Shown here: positions 17,066 through 58,841 of the stretch, piece by piece | Numbering within the stretch: position 1 is the stretch's first letter | Layout of the letters: each line of letters opens with the position of its first letter | Assembly (NCBI GenBank): GCA_946699065.1 | Contig: CAMPDV010000042.1 | Span: forward strand, 434,001-498,000 | DNA: 64,000 bases | Direction: 5' to 3' | Source: Loxodes magnus | Taxonomy: Eukaryota; Ciliophora; Karyorelictea; Loxodida; Loxodidae | Notes under the pieces: model-generated | The model's input: only the letters and a program-made list of their open reading frames with translations | The model's database searches: none | Told to the model about the DNA's origin: nothing | Made by a program: the position numbers and the translations under genes

Positions 17066-18508
17066 TCATAATTCCATTTTGCTACTTTCTTTCCTTTTCT
17101 AAATCCAACCATCAATCTCTTCAAAAGTTTTGTTTGTTGACCAAAAATAAGGTTATTTATCAGTTCGTGCCAGGAAATATAAACTTGGATATCCATCAAT
17201 TCTGAACTTAGGTGGAATATCATTATTAATAGCATCATATTTAGCTATTACAATATCTGATTCTCTATATTTTTCTGCTAGCTTTTCTCATATAGGAAAT
17301 AGCTTTTTACTATGATTGCACCATGGAGAGTAAAACATAATAAAGTAATCTTTAGTAAGATCTTGAAAATACTTTTTATAAGTTTTCCCCACTATTTTCA
17401 AAATGTTCTACTCATATAAATCCTAAGGTTCTGGTTCAGACCTTACAAAAACATCTAATTTATCTTCCTAAAATTGGTTTAAGAATTACTATATTTTTTA
17501 TAACTAAAGCTTTTAGTTATCTATTGGGTCCTCCAATACGTATTTTGTAGCTTCATTTTTTATTATTATGAAAATATTTTATTTAAGACTCAAAGAGTCT
17601 AAATAATCCTGCATTATCGAATTATCAACTAATCCTAATGAAACGTTTTTTTCTAAGGTTTTAATTCTATTTCATAGATATTTCACATTTTTTGGGGATT
17701 TTTCGTGGTGAGCATCAGTGATAAGAAGACCAAAAGGTTTTTTAAAGGTTTATAAATATGATTGGAACTAAGGATAATAAAAGACGTGCTTATTGATGAT
17801 GTTATTATCAATCCATTACTCTAATTCCTCTTTATTACTAAAGCTTTCTTTTATAGTGTAATCATCTGAAATGAATTTTGGATAAATAGTAACTACTCCT
17901 TCTTTTTCTAAATGATACTCATCTAATACATCTTAAAAGTCTCCTCATTAATACGAAGCGAATTTATACACATCTATTTTTTCACTAACAATTTCTTTGA
18001 ACCATAATTAGGCATCAGATTCTTTAGGGAAAATTCCTACTACAAAAGGATATTCAGGAAACTTAAGTCTTAGCTTTTTTAAATGAATCAACTTTTTTAG
18101 CTCTTCTTTTAAAGTAAACTTTCCTTAAAAGAATGATATTATACCTTCTGCAGTTCTTGGACCTTCATAAGGATTTGGTAAATTTTCATTAGGAAAGTAA
18201 AACTTTATAGTTGGATAATTAACAACATTCATCTAGTTTGCCAAATCTTAATTTTCAATCAGCGTTCCATCCACTTTAGCTAATTTAATTTTTGCATCTT
18301 TAAGCTTTTCAGCAACCTTATAATACTCAGGCTCTAAGATTCTACAACTTTTGCACCAAGGAGCATAAAATAAAATCACTCTCATATCATTTTAAAATCT
18401 TGAAAGCCAAGTATCAAATGCATTACTTTTAAGTTCATATACAAAATCTTGCTAGAAGTATTAGCAAGTAGATATAAAGAATCACATGCAAATAATAACT
18501 AATTTCAT
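17066..18508 (-). CDS. Protein disulfide isomerase-like ER protein
   Basis: The product is 480 residues with a signal peptide (MKLVIICMWFFISTCQ). The first thioredoxin domain has FYAPWCKSC with redox Cys at residues 52 and 55, and YPTIKFYF for the cis-Pro loop. Two non-catalytic thioredoxin-like domains follow. The last domain has FYSPWCNHSKKL (Cys 397, Ser 400), so the resolving Cys is missing there, and its cis-Pro loop is GYPSLYF. The C terminus SKMEL resembles a KDEL-type ER retention signal, which supports the TGA at 17066 as the true stop. Domain order a-b-b'-a' and length match PDI. It probably catalyses or chaperones disulfide formation in the ER, with one normal and one crippled active site. 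Confidence 0.9.
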
Positions 18509-32338: not shown

Positions 32339-32753
32339 TAATTTTAATTATAACTTTATCTTTACTCTAAATATCATAAAACACACTTGAAGCAAAAAAT
32401 AAATCTATCCTAATTATGTAATTCCTCTAAGGGCTAGTAATTAAATAGCATAGCCAACAAGAAATAGAGTAATGCACCAATCTAAACTCACTATTATTGT
32501 TACCATTCAATCATATAATGAAGTAGATAGGAAAGAGAATAGTAACTTAGTTACATAAATGAATATTATAAGCATTAGCATGAAAGATATAAGAAATAGT
32601 ACTAGTTATTTTATATTTTAGACTTCTTTTAGAGATTGAAATAATCTTATTATCTGTTAGAAGGCTAAATATGTAAATTATATTAGTCTTTTATATTCAG
32701 AATAGATAGAATTTGTATTAATCTAGATTAATTATTCATCTTTTATAAATACT
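32339..32753. other. Spacer between divergent genes
   Basis: This separates the candidate PP1-inhibitor ORF (minus) from cactin (plus) and should contain both promoters. Nothing recognisable is seen. Confidence 0.45.
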
Positions 32754-34085
32754 ATGGATAAATAGAAGCTAACGGATGCTTGGATTAAATAAGAAAATAA
32801 GTTTGAGCTTGAATAGTAAATTGCAAGAGTTAAGTAAAGAATACAGAATAGAAGAGCTGGATGCTTCGAACGACTAGTGCAGCTTTTTCTGTAATTCTAG
32901 GGTTAATATCCTATAAGTATGAATCAGAGTCAGCAAATATTGCATGAGCCTTATTTACTTCTAGAAAAATTAAATCCTGAATAATTAACTAAGCTTCAGA
33001 AATAAATAGAGCAGCACATATTATTAGAATAAACAAATGCTTCTTCAGAAGGAGTTAGATACTGAAGTAATTTGTTGATAATTTCTCGTGAGTAGGAATG
33101 AAAGAAGTTAATACCTGAAGATATTTAATAGGATGTTGAAGAATTTTTAAACAATAAAAATTATTAAGAACTAAGCTAGATATAAACTGAAGCAGATTCT
33201 TAAGATAATGATCCTTATTGAAAGGCAATTCTTGCTAAAACCAAAGTAAACCTAGCTAAACTATGGCTTCGAGAGTTTAGTTAGAAGTCTAAAGAAAAGT
33301 GATAACGTTAAAAATTCAGTAAGATAAAAGAGCAAGGATAAGAAGAAAACAAATAAGAAGAACTTAGCCCAAGACTATATGAAGAGAAGGACTTATAAGA
33401 GTTAAGTATTGATGCTCATGATATATATACAACTGAAGATTATATGGCTATTCATGAAAAAGTGAAGCAAGAATTGTTCTTTTAATAACGGTAAATATTG
33501 CTTTAAAACATGTAAAAACCTTTATAGGAATTGCAGAGCGAAAAGACTGAGTCTTGCTATTCAAGATATAACGTTTTTAAGCAAGAAAAGATTTATAAAA
33601 GGGATATCAAAGATACCATGTTTGAAAAATTAAAATTTGATATTGAAAAAAAAATAGATGTAAAAACTGAAATTGAGTAGTTACCTGTCTAGCAAATTTT
33701 TAGCACTTGAAATAAAAAGTATGCTCCACGTAAACCAAGATATTTCAACAGAGTAAAAACTGGCTATGAATGGAATAGATACAATCAAACTCATTATGAT
33801 ATTGATAATCCACCTCCTAAAACAGTTTAAGGATATAAATTTACACTCTATTACCCAGATCTTATTGATAAATCCAAACCTCCATAATTTTATCTAGAAT
33901 AGGATGGAACTAATCAAGACACAGTTATAATTCGTTTCCATGCGGGTCCTCCTTATGAAGATGTTGCCTTTAGAGTAATAAATAAAGAATGGGAATTTTC
34001 TGAAAGGTAAGGATTTAGAAATCAGTTTGATAAAGGAATTTTCTATCTTCACTTCAATTTTAAGAGACATAAGTATAAAAGATGA
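32754..34085 (+). CDS. CACTIN: Cactin, spliceosome-associated protein
   Basis: The product is 443 residues. The C-terminal cactin domain is very clear: RKPRYFNRVKTGYEWNRYNQ near residue 325, then THYDIDNPPPK, QGYKFTLYYPDLIDK, IIRFHAGPPYEDVAF and the final FNFKRHKYKR. The conserved middle begins near residue 10 with WIKQENKFELEQQ and includes MNQSQQILHEPYLLLEKL and YWKAILAKTKVNLAKLWLR. Cactin binds the spliceosome and is needed for accurate splicing, which is of interest in a genome with introns of 16-20 nt. The metazoan N-terminal Arg/Ser and coiled-coil part is missing. Five TGAs code Trp. Confidence 0.96.
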
Positions 34086-35373: not shown

Positions 35374-36866
35374 AGTATTTAATTAAAACACTCCTTTATT
35401 TATTTCTTTTTTATTCTCTTTATTTTACTTTTTCATTATCATGGAAGTTATACTTTTTTAGTTAAAATTGATTCATATAGATTACATAAGAATGGAAATA
35501 ATATAATGCTTTCATTCTTTTTATGTAATAAAATTGAGTGTTTCTCTTTATAAAGCTAATTTTTTTCTATTTTATTAATGATTTTAGCATGTCTCATTTT
35601 GAAGTATGATGAAATTATAAACCTTCTTCCTTTTATGTTAAGAAGTGGTAATATTATGCTTAATACAAATGTTTTACTTTAATTTTAAATAAAATTTCAA
35701 CAAATTAATTAAGAGCATTAGGATATTAATTTTAGCATATAGTAATAGTGTTTTCTAATTGCGTTATTTGGAAAATCAAAAATTTATTCGATTTTTGCTA
35801 TTATTTTGGATTTTGTTGAAAAAATGCCTTTTAAAGACTGTTCTAAGTTGTATAATTAGTAAATTTATATTTACTAAAATTTTAAAAAGTCTTTGCTTCA
35901 TATTGAAATCAAGAAATCAATTATTTAGATTAGAAAAAATTTTCATTAGGAATTTACCAAGATATACAAGATAGAAGGAGCTTATTAATTCCTTTATAAA
36001 TCTAATTTAAAGTTAATAGTTTAATAAATTTTAGTCCTTCTAATTAAAATAATTGACATCATCAACTTTTAATATTTCAACTTTAATGGTGTATCGCTAT
36101 AATAAAATGATCTCATTTTTCTGTTTTTTCTTAATTTATTTTAAATTATAGACTTTTTCAAACTCTTAACTATAATTTAAGGACTTTCATAATTAGACTT
36201 TTCTGTTGTCTTCATTTTTTCTTGTTTTTATTTGAGCAACTTAAAGAGCATGATTTAGCTTTATATTTATTAAAGATGAAATTATCTAAGTTAGATTTTA
36301 ATGTCAAAACAATATTACAATCGTAAATTAAAGACATAATTAATATTTAGGGAAAGGAGGATATCGGAGTTATCTTATTCTTAATCAAATAATAATCAAA
36401 AAATTTCTTAGATAGCAATTAATTTCTTATCTTAAGTTAACTTCATAAGGTGAGCTCTTCCGTTAATAGTGAATAATGTTATATAAATTTGCGTGATTCA
36501 TTGCTAGATCAGGTCACATAATTAAAATAAGCAGGGAATCATAGTCTTACTTATCTAAATGAGCAGTTAGGGTTAAGAATTTTAAGTTGGCTTTTCCTCA
36601 TACAAGTAAATTAGATGAATTTAAGTAAGTAAATACCCTTTTTAATTGACAAATATAATGAGGTGGATCTTGGCTAAATATAATTAATTAGCAACCATAA
36701 AAATTAGTTTTGATTCACTATAAATGAGTTATTAAGTCTGCTTTGCTATATCATACCTTACTGCTAGATCTAATAGTTTAATATGTTTGTAGATTCCATT
36801 TTGTTAAATTTAATTTTTATCAGTCCAACTGAAGAATCAAATTAAAAAAATAAAAATAAAAATAAA
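35374..36866. other. AT-rich spacer
   Basis: 1.5 kb between divergent EF-hand and AP-4 beta genes. A hydrophobic open frame at 35759-35974 has no ciliate-code support and is judged random. No repeat or RNA was seen. Confidence 0.5.
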
Positions 36867-39062
36867 ATGAGGCCAGGCACCGTACCACCTCCAGCACCAC
36901 AATATTTTGTTGATATGAAAAAATGGGAAGTAAATGAACTTCGTTAGTTGCTTAAAAACGTGCAAACAGAAAAAGACTAGAACAAAAAAAGAGAAGTTAT
37001 CAAAAAGGTTATAGCATATATGACTCTTGGTATTGATGTTTCTAGACTTTTTTCAGATATGGTTATGGCATCTAGCACCCCTGATCTTGTTTAGAAAAAA
37101 ATGATTTATCATTACTTAGTAAACTACGCGGAAAGTTAGCCTGATCTGGCTCTTATGGCTATTAATACTTTTTTAAAAGATTGCAAATAGTCCCCAGATG
37201 CTAAAGTTAGAGGACTTGCATTGAGAACTCTGTGCTCACTCAGAGTTAGCAGTACTTTCGAATATCTTTAGCAAGCAATTACCGAAGGACTCAATGATGG
37301 AGATCCTTATGTAAGAAGGACTGCAATATTAGGAGCATTAAAGCTTTGGCGAGGATAAAAAAATAATGATTTTATTGATACTTTATATGCAATGATAAGA
37401 GATCCTGATCCTACTGTAAGCACAAACTCTCTTCAAGCTTTAGATGAAATGCTATAAGATGAAGGGGGAATTGCTATTAATAGAAAGATGATTGTTTATT
37501 TATTGAACAACATTAAAAAATATAACGAATTTGGTTAGCAAGTAATATTAGATTTAGCAGCTAGATATGGTCCAAAAGATGAGGAAGAAAAATTTGATAT
37601 AATGAATATTTTAGAAGACAGATTGAGACATAGCAGCAGTTGCGTTGTACTTGGCACTATAAAAGTTTTCATTAACTATACTAAAGAAGATTAATATCTT
37701 AAATAGCAAGTCTTTTAGCGAGTAGCAACTCCTCTTATAACTCTTATGGTAGGTGGTGAAACAGTTGGATCCTTCGAAATGACTTTTACAATTCTAGCTC
37801 ATATTTACTAACTTATTTTGGATGGTGCTGCTCCAGTTTTCGAGCCTGAATATAAATAATTCTTTTGTAGATATGACGAACCCTCATATATAAAATCTAT
37901 AAAACTTGATATTTTAACACTCATTGCCAATGACACTTCTTTACATGATATTCTTAATGAAATGACTGAATATGTTACTGATGTAGATAATGATTTGGCA
38001 AGGAAATGTTTAGAATCAATGGGTAGAATAGCTTCAAGGCTACCTTCTGCAAGTTATCCGATTTTTCAAACTCTAATTAAATTTTTAGGACTGGCAGAAT
38101 ACGTATAATCTGCAGCGTTGGCTGTAATGTAAGATTTATTGCGTAGTTATGATTTGGCAAGTGAAGTACCTTAAGTTATTTAGGCATGTCAAGACAGTGT
38201 ATTAGATCTACCAGCAAAACAAGCCTTTATATGAATGTTGGGAGAATACGATATTGAAGAGGGTCCTTATATATTAGAGCCTTTTGTAAACAATGTGAAA
38301 GAAACTCCCACTCTTATCCCAATCTTATTATCAGCTTGCGTTAAATTATTTTTCAGAAGAGCTCCAGAGGTATATCCCATACTTTAAAACTTATTTAAGA
38401 ACATAAGTGATATTGATAATCCTGATTGGAAAGATAGAACTATGTGGTATTATGAGTTATTAAAGAACCCCGAGCTAGCTAAATAGGTAGTTTAATCTCC
38501 TCCTAAGCTATAGCTTGAACCAGCTAAATCTAAAATTTCATAAGAGGAATTCAACACTTTAGCTGTCATTTACCAAAAACCTCTTCCTAAAAAATAAATT
38601 GAAGCTTAGGAAATTACTTTTGATAAAACAGCTGAACTTGATTAAGAAGAGTATCAAGATAACTGGTTTAAATGGGAAACTGCAGCATAATTTTAAAGGA
38701 AACTATCAAGACCTGTTACTACAGAGGAGATGGAAAGTATGATGGCATAAAAAACAATTAATTGCATCGCTAGTGGAGAACCTGAGGAAGGATAGCTGAA
38801 ATTCTATTTCTATGCAAGAAATGAAACTGGACTTGTTCTCAGTGAAGTTTTGGTACAGCAAAGTGATGTTACAAGTATGGTTCAAGATTACACACTTTCA
38901 GCAGTAGTAAAAAGCTAAAGAGAAGATTTAACAAACGCTTTTGTGAAATGTTTCGAAAGTGCAATAGCTTCTATTATAGCAAGCAATACCTAATAAGTTC
39001 AATAGCAATAAGAACCACCTAAAGTTATCGAGGCTAATATAATTGATCTTATAGAGGGTTGA
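36867..39062 (+). CDS. AP4B1: AP-4 adaptor complex subunit beta
   Basis: The product is 731 residues. The N-terminal adaptin trunk is unmistakable: MTLGIDVSRLFSDMVMA, MIYHYLVNYAESQPDLALMA, then GLALRTLCSLRV, DPYVRRTAILG and RHSSSCVVLGTIKVF. FFCRYDEPSYIKSIKLDIL and AFIWMLGEYDIEEGPYILE match the AP-4 beta branch better than AP-1/2 or AP-3. A linker near residues 540-600 leads to a small C-terminal appendage ending IIDLIEG. AP-4 forms a clathrin-independent coat at the trans-Golgi. The conserved Trp of FIW is TGA; the stop is TGA 39060. The mu subunit of the same complex is at 50177-51529. Confidence 0.93.
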
Positions 39063-45801: not shown

Positions 45802-48800
45802 TCATTAAACTTTTAATAACTTGCCTATTTTAGTATCTAAAGCTTAGCATTTTAAATAAATTAAGTCTATTATATTAGCTTCTGTTAATAGTATATTATC
45901 TTAAGTTTTATTTAAAATGTAATAAGCAATCGACTTAAGTTGTATTCTAAGTTTAGAAATGATTTATGTGTATTAATAGCTTTTTAGATGGAATAGTATA
46001 AGATTAAATCTATTAAAGTTCAATTTTTCTCTATATTTCATATTTTATCTATGTACTTCTAGAGCGTTCCGTTTTACATACTTAGCTTCTTTGCTATGAC
46101 TTATTTCTTAAAGTTCTATTTGAGATTTAAAATTCATTTTAGTTCTTTTTTCTTTACCTTGATAGAGTTCCAGCAGTTCAGACTCTTTTTTACTATTGTA
46201 CTATATTTTAACTGATATTATCGAAATTAAAGCAGTTCTTCTCAAAATTAACACAGTATGGTCACACTTTTCAAAGTTCTGATATAATACAGGGTATTTT
46301 TCATTTAATAACATTAAGCTTTTTGGTGTTATATCAATGCTGCTTGACATGAACTTGATGGACATTTTCTTGTATACTTTGTATTAAGTTTATATTATTA
46401 GTATACTTAATCGCATTTTAGTATGACATCAAGCTTTCTACCAACATACTATTGCTTTCTTGGACTACTCCATGAATAAAATAAGCTATACTAATTCAAT
46501 CTTTATCCTTCTTAGTTCCTAGTTTTTTTTTACTGAACAATACCAAAAGATTTTCTATAAACTGTTAGCTAAATTCAAGGGAGAGTGTGTATTCCTTTAT
46601 GTATCAGTATCCAATTGTCATTGCTAATTAAACAAGTCATATATCATTAACATGGCATTAGAGTAGGCAATCATTGATTGCTAGCACAGCCTTGAAATTT
46701 TTTCCCTATCTGAATAATGGAATTACTCTTTATAAATTTTGGCGATATTGAACTTAGTTTGCTTATAGAATGCCTGCTAATACTTACTTAAATATCCTTT
46801 ATAAATATTTTATTTCAAATACCATAAGGAAGAGTTGCAAAGCTCCTTGGCTTCCTTTAATTAGTTACTCTTTATATAATCTTCGCATTTTAAGCTCAGC
46901 TATTGAATAATCTTAAGTGCTTGCTATGCATCAATCACAATATTTTCCATTACTTGCATTGATTTTAATAAGAGTAAAGAATCATTAATTAGGAATATAC
47001 TTAATCATTCTAATTTTTCCTTTAAATAAGTAGCTATATAAGTGAAATGCTTATTATATATTATACTTAATTTTACATGATTTGAAATAAACTTTTCAGT
47101 TATAATATAAAAGTATACACTTGTTCATATTGTAACTTCGGCTTCTAAGCTTCCAACCTTCATATTAAGAGTCATAGGCGCTAAAGAGGATATTTCTTGG
47201 AGTTAGTTGAGTATGTAGGGAAGTTCTATGGAAATTGTCATACTATTCTCACTTAATGTTACTCTATCTTAGAATTTTTAAACTATAGAAGAAAATTATT
47301 CTTATAATTCTTTATCAGGACTTTACAACGTCACACTCAGCTAGTTCCCGGCAGCTTCAAAGTTTATTTGATTATACAGCATCTTTTGAATAACTTATTA
47401 ATAGGGTTCAATTAATTTAATTCCTTGGTTTGACTTCTCAGTTGCCTTTGATAAATTATTATTTTCCAAAGTTGCTAAATCTTGTGACTCACTTAGCTTG
47501 AATAATTATTTGATACCAGTAGAAGAAATTCAATCTATATTCTATTAGATATCCCTTAGAATGCTTTATTGAAGATCTTCTGTTTTTGTTTTTTCTTCTT
47601 TTATGTGTCTTTTCATAAAAGACTGCTAAATTTTTTCAGAATCCCATTTCTGAGTATTTTCAACCTCTTTTAGCGTATCAAACTAAATTTAAATTAGTGA
47701 AGACATTCATTAAGAAGCCCATTACTCTTCAACATAGCCCCTCTTAGAGATATCAAGGTAATAATCATAGTATAAATTGAGCTTTTCCTAAGGAGTGGAG
47801 TTACTTGAACTTACGATTGAAAGGAACAAGCTTTGCAATAAAATACTATCTGAGGTTGGATCTTCAAATTATTCAATTCATTATTAAAATAATTTGGATT
47901 TGAACTTTAACTAAGGTATGCTTCTAGTCTTCTAGCTCTTCTTTTTAATAATTAGATCTTAAGTATTTGGCCAATATTACGGAATAATTTCCCAAGGCGT
48001 TTAAACATTTTGAGCTTCCTTACCTATTTTGACCATTTTATTTTAGTCTAAAAGAGATTTTAATGATTTAACAGATTGAAGAGCCAATTCTACGTCTCCC
48101 TTTAAGTTGCTTGAAATTTCGCTTTAAATAAATTCAGCAGCTAGGTTTATGTATCTCATGAAAGCCTGATAAAATTAAGCAAACACCTGATTTTATTCAA
48201 GTATTTCATTAGAAACTTTAAGGAAAGGGGTCTCATTCTAGAATTGAATTAGCTTAATATCTCCTTTGCAAACAGCGCTATAAGTAATTATAAGACTTCT
48301 TAGAATATTTTAGAACTCTGCCTGAAAGTTTTCTGACTTTAGATAGTAATTAACACCTGACTCTAGTAAAAGTTAATCATATGCTTCCTGCAAATTAAAT
48401 TCAAGTTCCTCTCCAAAGTTCTCTTTTTAAGGCTTTTGTTACTCAAGAACTTCAAGCAAATTCATTTTCTGCAAAATTTAAAAGAATTAAAACTGCTCTA
48501 AGGTTTAGGTCAATTGTATATCTTAGAAGGCATTTTGAAGCTAAAAATAAGTGACTTTGCAAAGTCCAATTTAGTGTTCTAATTCTTGATAACTATTGAG
48601 AACTTATTCTTAAAAAACTTTACATGAGCAAGGGATATATCTATCATATAGATATTCAATTATTTCAGTAAATTGATGAAGAATTCCTCTATCTAATGAT
48701 AGCACTAAATCAGCTTCTTTGTCATTTTTTTAAATAGCCTAAGCTCCTAAGTTTGTTCATAATTTCTCATGCTATTTTACGTTTACCTCTTAATTTCATT

Positions 48801-49962
48801 TTATATTAACTTGCGTTTAATTATTTTACTAAGCTTGATAAATTTTTCCTTAAATTGGCATAGATAAAATTTCATTTTTATCAAGAACAAAAACGTAGTT
48901 AGTGATTTCTTGGTTTTGCATAGGATCTGGTATAATATCGTTTTGGCTTTTAATTTCATTATTAGTAGCGTAATTTTGCTCACTAATATTTTTTTCTTCC
49001 CTACTTTAATCTTAAGACTGCTCATAATGATAAGCGTCCTAAGGCTAATCTTAATCGTTTTCTTATTAGTTAAGTCTGTTTTCTTCTTCATATTCAGTAT
49101 ATTTTAAATCTGTTTGTAGTTCTTCTTCTTACTTTTTCGCTTCCATTGCTTGTTATTCTCATTTAGCATCGTAAAACCACAAATCATTAGTGTTTTCCCA
49201 AGAGATATATTCGTGAAATTAAAACCAAGCGTTTATTTCTTTAAAAGCATTTTCTGTAGAATCAGAGCTATGAATAACATTTTTAAACAAGTCACAGCTG
49301 TTTTGATCTCTAATATATGAAGTAAGTTTCTGAACAATAGCGACTGCATTTTTACCTTCAAGAATGATAACAAGTACTGGACCTGATGTTATATATTTCT
49401 CGACATCAGTGAACTTCTATGTTTTTAAGAATTTGTGATAGTGCTTTTTTAGTTGCTCGTTTTATGCTTTTACCATTTTCATTGCTGATATTTATAAACC
49501 TTTTTGCTCAAAAATTTGTATTATTTCACCTACTAGTCCTCTTTGAATTGCATCAGGCTTTAGCATTACTAAAGTTCTCTCGGTGCTTTCAGATGTAGAG
49601 GGAATTGTAGCAGTTATCTTATGCAATTCATTTTTGAGAGTATTTTCTAGCTGCACCAGATCAGTAGAATTTATGGAAGTTTGAACACGAAGTCCTAAAC
49701 TCTGATTCTAGTGGTACGAACTAAAAATTTAGCCAGGCCTGTCATATAACCTTCTAAATGATCGAATGTTCATTGAAATTTATTCCTACCCTTGCATTGT
49801 CATATTGTTTGATTTATCCGTAGTTTAATGTTCTGAGGGATAAACTGAGTTCGACTCAGATAAATAAGTTTTTTCAGCCGAATGAAGTCTTCTATAAAAT
49901 TTATCGTCTGAGTAAGGATTGTATATTTGCAAAGGAATTAAACGTTACGGTATCTGTTCCAT
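45802..49962 (-). CDS. Large protein with N-terminal NDK domain and long helical C terminus
   Basis: A single uninterrupted frame of 1386 codons runs from ATG 49962 to TGA 45802. Residues 1-125 are Ser/Asn-rich. Residues 130-250 are a nucleoside diphosphate kinase domain: [40 protein letters not shown], and [20 protein letters not shown] with the phospho-acceptor His at 231. An acidic Gln-rich linker follows. The remaining thousand residues are helical and Gln-rich with no recognised domain (for example [20 protein letters not shown]). G frequency by codon position matches confirmed genes throughout and rejects the other two frames. NDK domains in such long proteins are typical of ciliary components, but the role here is unknown. 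Confidence 0.8.
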
Positions 49963-50176: not shown

Positions 50177-51529
50177 TCAGAGACGACATACGTATGAAGA
50201 AGAATGTGTCACATATCTAACCCAACGACATGGAATTCCACTTCCCTTTTGCCCTCGCTCATCAATTTTGAGATACTTAACTTATAAATTAGAGACATTA
50301 TACATTGGTATTTCGAAAATCATGCTAAAATAGAAAATTACCTTATTGGTCCAAGCTCTTTTTTAGCTTATTGAATTGTACCGCTTTAACTAGTGGAAAT
50401 TCTAGCTCTAATGTTATGTTCCGAACCACCTTAAAATTTTTTAATAGTTCATTCCGTTATTTTATCTCCCTATTTATATTCCCAATTTTATCCGCTAGCT
50501 CCCTTAGGTAATTCGCAGTTCACAGATTGAGTGTGTCTAGGAACTGAAAATTTAATAACAACATTAGCTCCATATTATGCAGAAGGAAAGCAAGCTCTAA
50601 TTTTGATAACTAATTCTAATTTAAATGGTCCCTGCTCTTCTACAAAAGGAAAAATTCTAAAAGGAGCTTGATAATCTCCTGTAATTCTATAATTCATAAC
50701 TGTAAACTCTCCATCAGGAGGCTTTATTAAAACTCTTTTGAAGTCTTCAAATTCTTTCAAATCGACACACTCATGGAAGTTGCAATCATCAAGCACTATT
50801 CCAGGCCCGCCACCCCTCCTTCCAACAACAAGATCTTCATTAAGTCCTAGTTAAAGTTAAGGATTATTTTCAAGATACGACTTCATTTAAATGCATCCAT
50901 CGATTGAAGAGTTGATGACATATCCAGAGGAATTAAAGAGAACAGCAACCTTTTCAAAAATATCAACAAAAATCTCTTTTTTACTCTTTTTCATAGATTA
51001 AATTGGACGAAAAACTGCCATATGAGAAACAGTTGAAGTTTAAAAAAGATTAGGTCGAAGAGCCTATTTACTTTGATCGACAGCTATAGTTTCATTTACA
51101 ATATAAGGTCTAATTTATTCAGTTGAAACGGATTGAGGATATCCATAGTCTACTATTTCATCTAAAATTTCATACGCTAAGACGAAATTCTTTCTTATTG
51201 CTTCTTCAGATAAAACTCCACAAAAGTCTTTGATTACTTTAATAAGACACTGAATAATTTCTATAGTATAAGAAGGTGCTATATTTGTTAAGGTAGTAAC
51301 CACAAAGTAAAGATTGTTCTTCTTTAGGTAGATAAAGTTCACTCCTTCTATATTCTTAATTAAAATTTTACAAAAATGGGAGGTGCATCTCCTTTCCAAA
51401 GAGTGACTGTTCTAAAAAACGTTTCACATGCTTCTCTTTTTGTTTCTCCCCTGACTACAGTAAAAATTTACAATTTTTGGTAATAAGAGTATCACCTCTT
51501 GGGGAAAGAATAAAGAATTATTCCAACAT
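50177..51529 (-). CDS. AP4M1: AP-4 adaptor complex subunit mu
   Basis: The product is 433 residues encoded by four exons with three 17-nt introns. The N-terminal longin-like part reads MLEQFFILSPRGDTLITKNF, TLWKGDAPPIF, NNLYFVVTT and NFVLAYEILDEIVDYGYPQS, very close to plant AP-4 mu. The mu homology domain has EIFVDIFEKVAVLFNSSGYV, LNEDLVVGRRGGGPG, PPDGEFTVMNYRI and ends VRYVTHSSSYVCRL. It binds sorting signals in cargo and pairs with AP-4 beta, whose gene is at 36867-39062. Each exon joint falls inside a conserved block, so the introns are secure. Confidence 0.95.
50325..50341 (-). other. 17-nt intron in AP-4 mu, C-terminal
   Basis: GTAATTTTCTATTTTAG on the minus strand. Its removal joins KKELGPI to MIFEIPMYNVSNLQVKYLK, a conserved mu stretch. 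Without it the C terminus is nonsense. Confidence 0.93.
51355..51371 (-). other. 17-nt intron in AP-4 mu, second
   Basis: GTAAAATTTTAATTAAG on the minus strand. Removal joins WKGDAPPIF to NIEGVNFIYLKKN, as in other mu subunits. Confidence 0.93.
51455..51471 (-). other. 17-nt intron in AP-4 mu, first
   Basis: GTAAATTTTTACTGTAG on the minus strand. Removal joins DTLITKN to FRGETKREACETFFR, matching the mu N terminus. Confidence 0.93.
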
Positions 51530-51729: not shown

Positions 51730-52776
51730 TCAAGCTCTTTCTCCACTTTGACGAAGAATAGTTACTGCTCTTTTATACGCCTATTAAGCTATTTCCACTT
51801 TTCTCTTCCAATTTTAAAGTTATTAATATTTTTTCCTTAGTGCTTCCTTCTGATTCACATAGTCCATGACATTACTAGTCTCATCTAGCATATCCTATTT
51901 CAGTATTTAAATTTAAATATCATTCTTTATTTTTTTTTATTCTGTTGATATTTTATTAATTTCATTTTGCATTTTTTTCCTTTACTCATTGGCTGAATAA
52001 ATTCTCTCTTCTAGCTTATCTTTTGTAGAAGTTATTTCATTTAACTTCTTTTTGAGTGCATTTAGTCTTTATACAGTTTTACCAGTTGTCATTTTGAGAG
52101 ATATTAGTTTTTTGTTTCTCTCATTTATATCATTTACATGTTTTTTGTTTTCTATTTAAAGTTAATGAAAGTCAATGAATTTAAGATCATCACCCATACT
52201 GATTTTTTGCTTAATCTACAAGTTAGCTTTAGATATTTGATTATTTAATGCTATATTTTTTAACTCAAATTTGTCTCTGAGAGCTTCTTTTTGTCTCATT
52301 TTTTCTTCCATATATCTAATTATTCTTTCAGCTATTACTTTTCCTGTTTTAACATTTTCACTTCCCATTACAATATCTCTTTTAAATTCATATGCCTCAC
52401 GCTTTATTTCAGCGATAGCTAAATCTGTTTCCTCTAAAACTGCTCTAAGAGTTTCAAGAAGTTCTTCTGATTTTTTTCTTCCTTCTTCAATATTTTTTCT
52501 AAGAGATTCTAATTCAGCCTAAGCAATTTCATATTTTTCTTCAGCATTTAATTCTTTCTTTTCTTAATGAGCTGGTGCTTTTTTCTTCTTTTTCCCTTTT
52601 TCATTTTGTTCAAAGTTTTCTTCGAACTCCTCATCTTTTTTTTACCTAATTAAGTAAGATTCAAACAAATTATTTTCTCTTCTTTTTTACTCATTTTTCT
52701 TGCATATTTCCTCAAGTTCTTGAGACAATTTTTCAAGATTCATACGTTCATACTCTCTGATTACTAGTTCAGCCAT
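51730..52776 (-). CDS. CCDC113: CCDC113/CFAP263 ciliary coiled-coil protein
   Basis: The product is 348 residues, almost entirely coiled coil, matching the length of CCDC113. The N terminus has LSQELEEICKKNEQKRRENN and FESYLIR. A Lys/Glu linker follows. The conserved DUF4201 core reads KTGKVIAERIIRYMEEKMRQ, then SMGDDLKFIDFHQLQIENKK and HVNDINERNKKLISLKMTTG. The C terminus WKRKVEIAQQAYKRAV is also conserved. With CCDC96 it forms part of the axonemal radial-spoke/N-DRC bridge and basal-body-associated structures in ciliated cells. Expected in a ciliate. The stop is TGA 51730; no intron is needed. Confidence 0.95.
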
Positions 52777-53861
52777 TATGAAAGCTGAAATTATTTATCT
52801 TTAACAACATAAAGTTAATAGTGCTTTACTTAAATATTATAACTAATTTAATACTTTCTTTATAACTGCTTCTTAATGGAATAAACTTGATTTTTTATTA
52901 CGTGCCAGTCTATCACTATTATAAGGTTCTTTTTTTGTTTTTTATAAATGCTAAAAATATAAATAAGAACACTTAAAATAATGAACTATATTAGACGTAA
53001 TATATTTATAGTCATTTTAAAGATAAACTAGCTTGTTATGAGACATATTACTATATCATAGTATTGATTTAATTAAGATAGATGATTTGTAATTAATAAT
53101 GCAATAATTAGTAAAGCTGTTTAAAAGAATAAGCTAAGCTTATTATATGAGCTATATTATTACTTTACTGTTTTATTTAAAGTATTAACTAAGTTTGCTT
53201 AATCAACTACATTTTATTCTACTATCTTTTTTAGTTATCTTTGCTATTATCTTTTACAATTAGGATTTATTATTTTTTGCTTATTTAGCATATGAAAAAA
53301 GTAGAATTTTATATAAGATAAGGAGAGTATGTTTAAGCTGAGATATAGATAATTAAAGTTGAGTGTATAGATTCGCTTTACTGAATAAAGTTAGATTGAA
53401 CTATAGTATTGCTATTTATTGCTAGATATTCTTTTCATTATATTTATTTACAATTCCTATTACTTCTAGTAGCTTTCAGCTTAAACCTCATACACTCTTT
53501 AAGTATCTTTTATTATGAAACAGTTATAATAGAAATAATATTTAGCAGTAAGTATCTTTAAATTAGTTATAGGACTAGATATAATGCTATTAAGCTTTAG
53601 GATTTGGTAAATATGAAATATGAAGACTTTAATAAAAGTAAGATATTAATTATGGATTAGGCTTTATAATATACTCTAGTGCAATTATCACTTAAGCACA
53701 TTGCTTTACTTAAACAATGGTTGCAAATCTTTATTTAAATTAGATTATAATTGACCCTTATAATATATGTAGCACTGTAAAGTATAAATAAAGGCTGCTT
53801 AATAGTTTAAATTATAGATAGTTAGATATTAAATGCTTATTAATAAATTAAGTGTAGACGC
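52777..53861. other. AT-rich spacer
   Basis: 1.1 kb between two minus-strand genes, AT-rich; no recognisable element. Confidence 0.5.
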
Positions 53862-55171: not shown

Positions 55172-56263
55172 TCATTTAAAGAATAAGTTCTTTTAATTAT
55201 AATTATTAATATTAAGTTAAATTTATTACTTTAGATTACTTTTGTACTAATACCAATAAACTAATATTAGCAAGCTAAAAATTAATTAACTTTACATTTA
55301 CTTAAATCTATTTGATTTCATTATTGCAGGTAAGTTTGTAGGCTTGACCCAGTAAGGAGAAATATATGCTACTTAATATTTCTACTATGATTGAACTTTT
55401 TTATGGAATTCTTCTAGTTAATCTTTGAAATTAGGAATACTTGGAACGGTTTTATTTTCAATTTATTTAACTGATCTTGGAATACTATCGTAGGTTTTAT
55501 TTACATCAAAGCTATTTTTCTTTATCTGAGGACTAGTTTCTTTAGTTTATTTTATCTCTCTTTTAGTTTACTATAAGTTTTCATATTATTATTTAAAACT
55601 TTCTTTTATCTTTTGCTTATTTTGTTCAGAAAATCATCTTTATCTTATTTTTTGTCTTTTCAAGACTCTTTCATTTCTTTAAATTTGCTTCATTATATTT
55701 TCAAAAGGAATAGTTGCTCCTAAATCAAGAGATTTTAGTTTAAGGTTATTTTTTAGCTTCTACTTATCGTTATCTTTGTTTGTCTACTTTTAGTTGTATT
55801 GGATTTCTAAGCTTTTATTAAGTGCTATTTGGTAGTTGATATTATTGTCCGGCTTTATTTTTTATGGTCGTTTGAAATCGAATCGAGTTCTTACATGCTT
55901 AATAGGATCATAAGATTGCTAGACTACTTGCTTCCTAAGAAATTTTTGATTGTTATCATTGAATTCTTTATACCTGTTTTTCATAAATTTGTAAGAACCC
56001 AAATCTTCTTTAATATCCTTGGAATACAAAGCTCTCTCTTATTTTATGCCTGAAGGTGATCAAACCTATTCAAATTCCTTAGGAGCAGATTTTAATTGGG
56101 ATTGTCTAAATTATCGAGCTTAGTCAGTAATGGGATCATAAGTGTAGTCGATTTTATCTTTTCTAGAGAAGTAAATTTTGTCTTCATCATTTTTATACCT
56201 TCTCTAGAAAAGCTGATACGTAGTTAGGTTGGAAGTATTAAACAAGTCATTAATAGTAAGCAT
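55172..56263 (-). CDS. Uncharacterised basic protein
   Basis: The frame is up to 363 codons from ATG 56263. The first 100 residues (MLTINDLFNTSNLTTYQLFQ, YDPITDQARQFRQSQ) and a middle part (YDPIKHVRTRFDFKRP) look like conserved short motifs of a ciliary or cytoskeletal protein; the rest is a Lys/Gln-rich helix ending PYWVKPTNLPAIMKS. No family is named. The last 45 codons before TGA 55172 are AT-rich and may be non-coding, with a missed intron giving an earlier stop. Its start lies only 46 nt from the divergent receiver-kinase gene, so the two probably share a promoter. Confidence 0.65.
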
Positions 56264-56309: not shown

Positions 56310-58841
56310 ATGGAAGAAGAAAAGCCTATTCATATTTTGATAGTAGAAGACGAAACTTTTTAACGTTTATCTCTAGTTGATATTTTGTAACTGTATCATT
56401 ATACAACTGATGAAGCTCCTAATGGTTAAATTGCTTGAGAAAAATTATCCAAGAAAGAAAATAATTATGACTTAGTTTTGCTTGACATTATGATGCCTAT
56501 TATGGATGGAGTAGAGCTACTGCAACTGATGAAATCTTCTGAACGTACAAAAGATATACATGTGATTATGATGTCTGTTGCTGAAGAAACTGAAAAGATT
56601 TAGTATTGCATTAAGCTTGGAGCGATGGACTATTTAATCAAGCCTATAAGATCTAATGATGCTATGTTTTTTGGCTAAAGGGTAAGAGAAGCCAACAGAT
56701 AAAGACAAAGAGCATAGCATAACTCAAACATGAACAGTCTTTCAAATTACGAGACTGTAAAAGAATTAGGAAAAGGAACAAGCGGAAAGGTAACTCTAGT
56801 TAAGCATAAGTAAACGGGATAATAGTATGCTCTGAAATAAATGTTTGTAGAAAAAATGAATTAAAAAGAAGCCTAAAATGCAGAAAATGAAGTTGCACTC
56901 TTGAAAGTTCTTGTAGCTCCTACAATAATTCGTTATTATCACTCATTTTTTGATAATGGATATTTAAATATTTTGATGGAATATGCCTCAGGGGGAAATC
57001 TGCATGATAAACTAATTATGTACAAGAATCAAAACTAAAAAGTCCCTAATAAGTAAATTTTGCAATGGATAGCTCAACTTGTACTGGGTTTGCTCTTTAT
57101 GCATAGCAAAAATTAAATTCATAGAGATATTAAAGCTCAAAATATGTTTTTAGCAGAAAATAATGTTCTTAAATTAGGTGATTTTGGAGTTAGTAAGTCA
57201 CTATCATAAACTTCTTAAGGTTTTGCTTATACAATTGCAGGAACTCCTTACAATATGGCTCCAGAAGTATGTTTAGGACAGTAATACGATCAAAGTGCTG
57301 ATATATGATCGTTAGGAACACTTATATATGAGATAGCAACACTGCAGAGACCTTTTGAGCATACAGAATTAAAAGGTTTGATTGATAAAATTTGCAATAG
57401 CGATTATGAGCCTATTTCAGAAAATGTTGATTCAAATATCAAAACTATCATTCAGACTACATTAAACAAAGATCCAAGTAGAAGACCATTAATATGAGAT
57501 TTAGCAAAATTTCCTTGCATAGAGCAAGAAATTATGGAGTTTTGTGAGAGAGAAAAATGCACTAATCAAATTTAAGTCGTTCTAAAATGTCCTCAATTCC
57601 AAAACAATTTAAGAGCAAACTTGCGTGAGCCAGTTAATTTAGTAGAGAGACTAGATATAGAAGATATTGCTAATAATATTAGAGCTGAAATAAAATTGAC
57701 AGACTATAAGATTAACTATTTTGGAAAAAAGTACCAAAACGTTTTTAGTGGCTATGACTTAAGCTAAATCTTAAAATAAAAATACTAATTTAATGACGAA
57801 AAAATAAGGAATACATGTGCTCAAATGATTGAAAAAGAACTGATATTTTAAGTGGAGAACTTGAAAACCTTTAATTAGAATTACTATTACTGATTCTTAT
57901 AAGATAAACCAAATAATGCTAAAAACTGTATTTATAACTGACAAAAGTAAGTTAGATCTCATACTTAAATAACTGCTGATTTAATATTCTTATTAAATCA
58001 GATGCTTAAATAAGTTAACGAAACCTAAGATTAAGAATTTCTATTTCAAGTTAAAAAATCAACAGACTATACTAAGTTCTAGAAAGCAATTGGAGAATTG
58101 CAAAAGCTAGATATTACAGGACTTTTAGAAGATGAGAAAATGTCTTTTTTCTTAAATTTGTATTAGATTATGTACATCCATGCCTAAATTGATAATGGAG
58201 GATAAGTGAAGGGTATAAAGAAGGGATTATTGTTCTATCATGATACAGGAAGCTAATTCTTCTATAGCATTTAGAATTATAACTTTACACTTGCAGAAAT
58301 TAAGCATGGAATCCTTAGATAGAATCGGCCTCCTCCTGGATGCTTTAGAAGAATATTAAAATCAGGAGATCCAAGATTAAACCTAGTAATTAAGTAGTAC
58401 GATCCAAGAATTCTTTTAATATGCTTCGATCCTGATTAAGGAATTCCTAATGCTCTAGAATTTTTTAATGATCTAAACCAATAAAATAGGCTAAGCGTAA
58501 AGACTGAAGAGTTTTGCAATAGAGAAATATGCTGGAATTAGATCTCTCTAGAACTGACTTTTCCAAAGCTGTTTTATGATTACATGAATGATTTTGGTGG
58601 AAATTTTGAGAAGATGTTATCTTTTGTATGAAAGTACTATACTTCAGTATAAGATAAAGTTGAATAAATATAAGAAAAAGTAAAGCAAAAAAAGATTAAA
58701 GTGTTTTATAGAGAATATAATTCAAAAGAATATATGGAATATAATTAGAAACTACAAGAATACATTGATAATATGTATGAACAGGAGAAAGTAACACTTG
58801 GAAAAGTTAATGAAAATAATGAAAACAAAAAATCTAATTGA
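56310..58841 (+). CDS. Receiver domain - protein kinase - DEP - DUF547 fusion protein
   Basis: The product is 843 residues with four domains. Residues 7-120 are a two-component receiver: ILIVEDE with acidic pocket residues 13-15, the phospho-acceptor Asp 59 in LVLLDIMMP, Ser 89 and Lys 111 (YLIKP). Residues 147-400 are an intact NEK-like kinase: LGKGTSGKV, Lys 176, HRDIKAQN near 271, GDFG near 291 and TPYNMAPE. Residues about 455-530 are a DEP domain (KNYFGKKYQNVFSGYDLSQI-like, MIEKELI, YYYWFL). Residues about 605-800 are DUF547 (FFLNLYQIMYIHA, EIKHGILRQNRPPPG, DPRLNLVIKQYDPR). A histidine-kinase phosphorelay may gate Ser/Thr phosphorylation. The stop is TGA 58839. Confidence 0.93.

Follow-up and report, generated by a model that had tools for sequence, protein, structure and literature searches.

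A receiver joined to a NEK-like kinase in Loxodes magnus: a candidate end point of a histidine phosphorelay

Could a bacterial-style phosphorelay address a eukaryotic Ser/Thr kinase within one and the same polypeptide? The question is raised by a gene of the ciliate Loxodes magnus, found in a 64,000-nucleotide stretch of contig CAMPDV010000042.1 (the whole of which is called the window below), for which a preliminary description had reported a receiver, a NEK-like kinase, a DEP and a DUF547 domain following one another in a single frame. The assembly containing the window comprises 705,730,643 bases in 7843 contigs. It is described as a 706-Mbp macronuclear assembly read by genetic code table 27, in which TGA serves both as tryptophan and as stop and 93% of introns are 25 bp or less (PMC11441545).

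Domains of the window gene and of its paralogue

The presence of the four domains in one frame was confirmed, and a second gene of the same build was found on another contig (C77). The relevant features are as follows.

56310..58841, forward strand: receiver-kinase gene, 843 amino acids plus a TGA stop under code 27, readable without assuming an intron
56334..56657, forward strand: receiver (Response_reg), Pfam residues 9-116, 6.7e-24, with E13, D14, D59, S89, Y108 and K111
56484..56486, forward strand: codon of D59, the predicted phospho-acceptor
56748..57506, forward strand: Ser/Thr kinase, NEK-like, Pfam Pkinase residues 147-399, 5.7e-60
57699..57893, forward strand: DEP, Pfam residues 464-528, 1.5e-5, below the cut-off and supported by fold comparison
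58122..58514, forward strand: DUF547, Pfam residues 605-735, 2e-16
C77:217759-220161, reverse strand: paralogue, 800 residues in a single frame that carries all four domains, ordered as in the window gene

The two proteins are 51% identical over 799 columns by BLASTP (52% in the alignment), silent sites between the genes are saturated (dS), and amino-acid change has been slower in the four domains than in the linker and the tail, the latter being 16.7% identical with a dN of 1.03. Judged by these comparisons, the window gene and its paralogue are an old duplicate pair that has kept all four domains. The pair also bears on the reading of the code, as 53 codons of the window gene change their meaning between table 27 and table 11. 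In-frame TGA at W43, W333, W528 and W544 corresponds to TGG in the paralogue (positions 41, 329, 518 and 534, respectively), and W396 and W774 are encoded by TGA in both copies. The tryptophan kept at the four former sites supports the code as read, and the frame thus does not arise from the choice of code. A scan of codon usage along the window, trained on the gene and its paralogue, placed the receiver-kinase frame at the top of 11 segments. The uninterrupted frame originally proposed therefore stands, with 843 residues open under code 27 and its domain order repeated by the paralogue.

The receiver, claimed at the outset to be intact (Asp 59, Lys 111) and to precede the kinase, scores well beyond the Pfam cut-off of 30.2 bits for Response_reg (PF00072) in both the window gene (84.6 bits) and the paralogue (84.8 bits). 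Its catalytic set, E13, D14, D59, S89 and K111, together with the aromatic Y108 at position K-3, is complete in both copies, and covers the DD, phospho-Asp, Ser/Thr and Lys positions by which receivers and their roles are defined (PMC8510515). Among nine stretches compared between the copies, this domain ranks first in identity (64%, dN 0.29). By name, the closest solved receivers are response regulators of chemotaxis, sporulation and the PleD type, the best of them at 6.5e-14, with plant ARR1 ranking lower at 3.4e-11.

Behind the receiver, the kinase domain retains the motifs of a catalytically complete Ser/Thr kinase, as had been proposed: the glycine loop (G154, G156, G159), K176, HRD (271-273), N278, DFG (291-293), PE (318-319) and R392, all shared with the paralogue. 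Its activation loop carries T308, which we take to be the position at which NEKs have their activation-loop threonine. Across receiver and kinase, all 26 motif positions of our own choosing are equal in the two copies. Compared with solved structures only, and setting aside a chain named as a PKR/NEK-type chimera, the window kinase is closest to NEK1 (3e-55) and NEK7 (7.9e-46), the first non-NEK being PKA (4.9e-37); the paralogue kinase likewise matches NEK1 (5.1e-60) and NEK7 (8.6e-50), while its match to NEK2 (2.2e-41) is level with that to STK24 (5.2e-41). By sequence similarity among solved structures, the kinase domain of both copies is thus nearest to the NEKs. It is 61.5% identical between them (dN 0.32), compared with 18.5% (dN 1.03) for the short linker, residues 119-146, that separates it from the receiver.

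The C-terminal half fared less uniformly. DUF547 (PF04784) is recognised by its profile at 60.6 bits in the window gene and 54.3 bits in the paralogue (cut-off 27; 3.6e-15 in an in-frame domain scan of the latter), and is 50% identical between the two (dN 0.44). DEP (PF00610) stays below its Pfam cut-off of 32.7 bits, both in whole proteins (25.2 bits in the window gene, 26.9 in the paralogue) and when cut out as a domain (29.7 and 31.4 bits), with 37% identity and a dN of 0.54 between the copies; fold comparison of the model nevertheless supports a DEP fold. Prediction of the whole protein from the two-row alignment gave a mean pLDDT of 35.6 and a pTM of 0.22, and a model of residues 429-781 reached a mean pLDDT of 42.9 and is usable over the DEP part only, DUF547 lying under 50 in the models. 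No solved relative of DUF547 was found by phmmer up to E 1. The Pfam search of the code-27 translation hence upheld Response_reg, Pkinase and DUF547, leaving DEP to the fold comparison, and the two domains on whose detection by profile the preliminary description had staked its reading, receiver and DUF547, both exceed their cut-offs in both copies. Its phrase 'membrane-associated' would apply by analogy with other DEP domains.

A genome search with DUF547 returned two places from three candidates, the window gene and the paralogue, so both DUF547 places found belong to proteins of the receiver-kinase type.

Histidine kinases in the genome, and a likely one beside the paralogue

Histidine kinases are on record in other ciliates, with phosphorelay sensor kinase families expanded in six hypotrichs (PMC10946202) and histidine kinases reported in Paramecium bursaria (PMC4029085). 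In the Loxodes assembly the receiver family yielded 394 candidates, an incomplete list from which the window gene's own receiver is absent; all 50 places that were scored lie above the cut-off. From 30 loci, eight were read with their flanks, and seven of these carry an in-frame HATPase_c, one with a HisKA match as well, below its cut-off. On the strength of these domain matches, the genome contains numerous hybrid histidine kinases, their count being inflated by near copies on different contigs (e.g., L095 and L096). When all frames up to about 1.5 kb away were scanned at the 30 receiver loci, the paralogue alone turned out to have the kinase, a scan that is blind to exons further off and excludes the other 364 of the 394 candidates, 20 of them scored.

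Two arrangements were observed in the receiver list as a whole. Contig C72 holds seven listed places between 275 kb and 675 kb, forming a local cluster; the two that were read, L090 and L093, carry HATPase_c. Loci with equal scores recur elsewhere (L094-L100 and L113-L116 on contigs C2049, C2071, C2390 and C792; L108-L112 on C140 and C210), on four contigs at a spacing of about 13.65 kb, a pattern suggestive of a duplicated segment bearing histidine kinase genes, or of haplotypes kept apart.

The immediate surroundings of the two receiver-kinase genes differ in what was recognised there.

C77:220212 (first ATG), forward strand: hybrid histidine kinase frame L117 (L003 (C77) 3213 onward), HATPase_c 2.7e-19, receiver 3.5e-24
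55300..56263, reverse strand, end provisional: divergent frame beside the window gene, about 320 residues

Frame L117 stands head to head with the paralogue, its first ATG, a putative start since the frame stays open upstream under table 27, lying 50 bp from the ATG of the paralogue (C77:220161, reverse strand). By eye, its N-terminal part is hydrophobic, and an H-box (HEIRHP) and motifs for nucleotide binding can be made out; HisKA was not found in it by Pfam. The expected number of receivers no more than 2.5 kb away from any one gene, to either side, is about 0.01, or 0.02 for two genes, an expectation that is built on the incomplete list of 394 candidates and on 229 Mbp of unmasked sequence (PMC11441545), and that ignores clustering such as the seven listed places on C72. 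This adjacency is the best hint of a route from a histidine kinase to a NEK-like kinase.

The divergent frame next to the window gene, whose first ATG is 46 bp from that of the receiver-kinase gene, has no confident Pfam domain (sole match OEP, 17.9 bits against a cut-off of 22), and is probably a separate gene sharing a promoter region. Since the window gene too has a divergent neighbour, at 46 bp, close divergent starts may be ordinary in this genome, and adjacency taken by itself weighs little. No histidine kinase was recognised beside the window gene, the other genes around it having ordinary Pfam assignments:

51733-52785, reverse strand: CCDC113/CCDC96
50347-51219, reverse strand: adaptor medium subunit
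47134-49665, reverse strand: nucleoside diphosphate kinase
36825-39059, forward strand: adaptin with beta2 appendage
17072-18451, reverse strand: thioredoxin (two stretches)
32751-34037, forward strand: cactin

The histidine-kinase input suggested initially therefore gains from the HATPase_c found at seven of eight receiver loci, one of them about 50 bp from the paralogue, but not from the surroundings of the window gene itself.

Known proteins of related architecture

Each part of the protein has relatives in other settings. NEK1 and NEK7 offer the closest solved kinase domains to both copies, and human NEKs, to our knowledge, are devoid of receiver, DEP or DUF547 domains. In plants, DEP and DUF547 occur together in DEP-glutaredoxin-DUF547 proteins, with a glutaredoxin in place of receiver and kinase. 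The receiver has the same catalytic set as bacterial CheY, Spo0F and PleD, unlike which the window protein has a NEK-like kinase as its output. Among prokaryotes, none of the 3901 stop-to-stop frames (80 or more residues, phmmer at 1e-5) in the best 80 of at least 455 confirmed loci had a match to more than one of the four domain queries; 75 of these 80 loci matched the receiver query only, two the kinase only, and three both in different frames. Viral contigs contained one receiver-only locus and none with both alignments, and plasmids searched with the DUF547 part gave no match. A DNA pattern for a DUF547 motif pointed to three places, which were judged to be chance because their frames are only 29 to 65 residues long.

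Fusions of receivers and protein kinases do exist in eukaryotes. Rim15, a fungal kinase of the Greatwall family with a C-terminal receiver, likewise unites protein kinase and receiver in one protein, and is counted among the fungal response regulators (PMC8510515). Its phospho-Asp has been replaced in Ascomycota, by Glu in most entries, Ala in S. cerevisiae and Gly in C. albicans, and is present in Basidiomycota and Mucoromycota (PMC8510515). The window protein differs from Rim15 in placing its receiver before a kinase that is NEK-like and not Greatwall-type, and from the ascomycete members in keeping the phospho-Asp, D59; DEP and DUF547 do not figure in the part of PMC8510515 drawn on here. 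Another protist example is the oomycete Phytophthora infestans, for which one eukaryotic protein kinase (ePK) of group OTHER is tabulated with Response_reg (Table 2, PMC3019232); in the sections of that source used here, this kinase is absent from the novel combinations named, and its domain order, family and any DEP or DUF547 are not given. With a fungal and an oomycete precedent, the protein represents no new category, and the earlier remark that no described protein was known to have this exact order agrees with our finding none with receiver, NEK, DEP and DUF547 in that order in the open-access literature searched.

A probable response regulator with a kinase output, and the alternatives

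These observations favour, with a probability of about 0.6, a protein that acts as a response regulator with a NEK-like Ser/Thr kinase as its output, in which a phosphorelay to D59 would set the kinase, and DEP and DUF547 would place it. D59 would receive its phosphate from a hybrid histidine kinase, either without an intermediate or by way of an Hpt carrier; the S89/Y108 switch would then alter the receiver surface, and this change could pass through linker 119-146 to turn the kinase on or off, with DEP and DUF547 directing it to a membrane or to a partner. We infer phosphotransfer, the direction of the switch, targeting and the partnership with L117 alike from sequence. A wider proposal is more tentative, and we would put it somewhat below even odds: a full two-component pathway of Loxodes would lead to a eukaryotic kinase at its end, and one copy would be kept with a hybrid histidine kinase as a gene pair in bacterial style, both transcribed from an intergenic stretch of about 50 bp.

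The poor conservation of the linker speaks for a different account, in which the receiver is a docking or dimerisation module resembling a pseudo-receiver, and control of the kinase lies with DEP/DUF547 or with its activation loop. A phosphorylation-independent mode has indeed been proposed for ascomycete Rim15 with its replaced phospho-Asp (PMC8510515). In both Loxodes copies, however, none of the five catalytic residues has been lost, nor has the K-3 aromatic, and the receiver is the most identical stretch compared, which makes docking without phosphorylation unlikely. Signal flow might also run in reverse, the kinase being the sensor side (via DEP/DUF547) and acting on partners from the phosphorelay that the receiver binds. 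Sequence gives no direction, and the histidine kinase adjoining the paralogue could be substrate as well as donor, but an N-terminal receiver with its effector behind is, from textbook knowledge, the usual layout of response regulators, and we consider this reversal less probable still. That two genes, or the pieces of a misassembly, were joined by a permissive code deserves mention since table 27 has no fixed stop and makes long frames cheap, 53 codons here differing from table 11. A second contig with the same order in one frame, and with TGG at four of the in-frame TGA sites, rules this out, and the idea is rejected as having next to no likelihood.

Should the wider proposal hold, a histidine phosphorelay would switch a NEK-type kinase directly, with no MAP-kinase cascade intervening. 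In the eukaryotic cases known to us, a phosphorelay reaches its kinase by way of a separate protein (e.g., Ssk1 on Ssk2), or the receivers are degenerate, as in ascomycete Rim15. A fused, fully equipped receiver-NEK kinase beside a candidate histidine kinase would make one-step coupling testable, and would also provide DUF547, a domain of unknown function, with a signalling context. NEKs have ties to cilia and to cell division, and ciliates would therefore be an apt place for such coupling.
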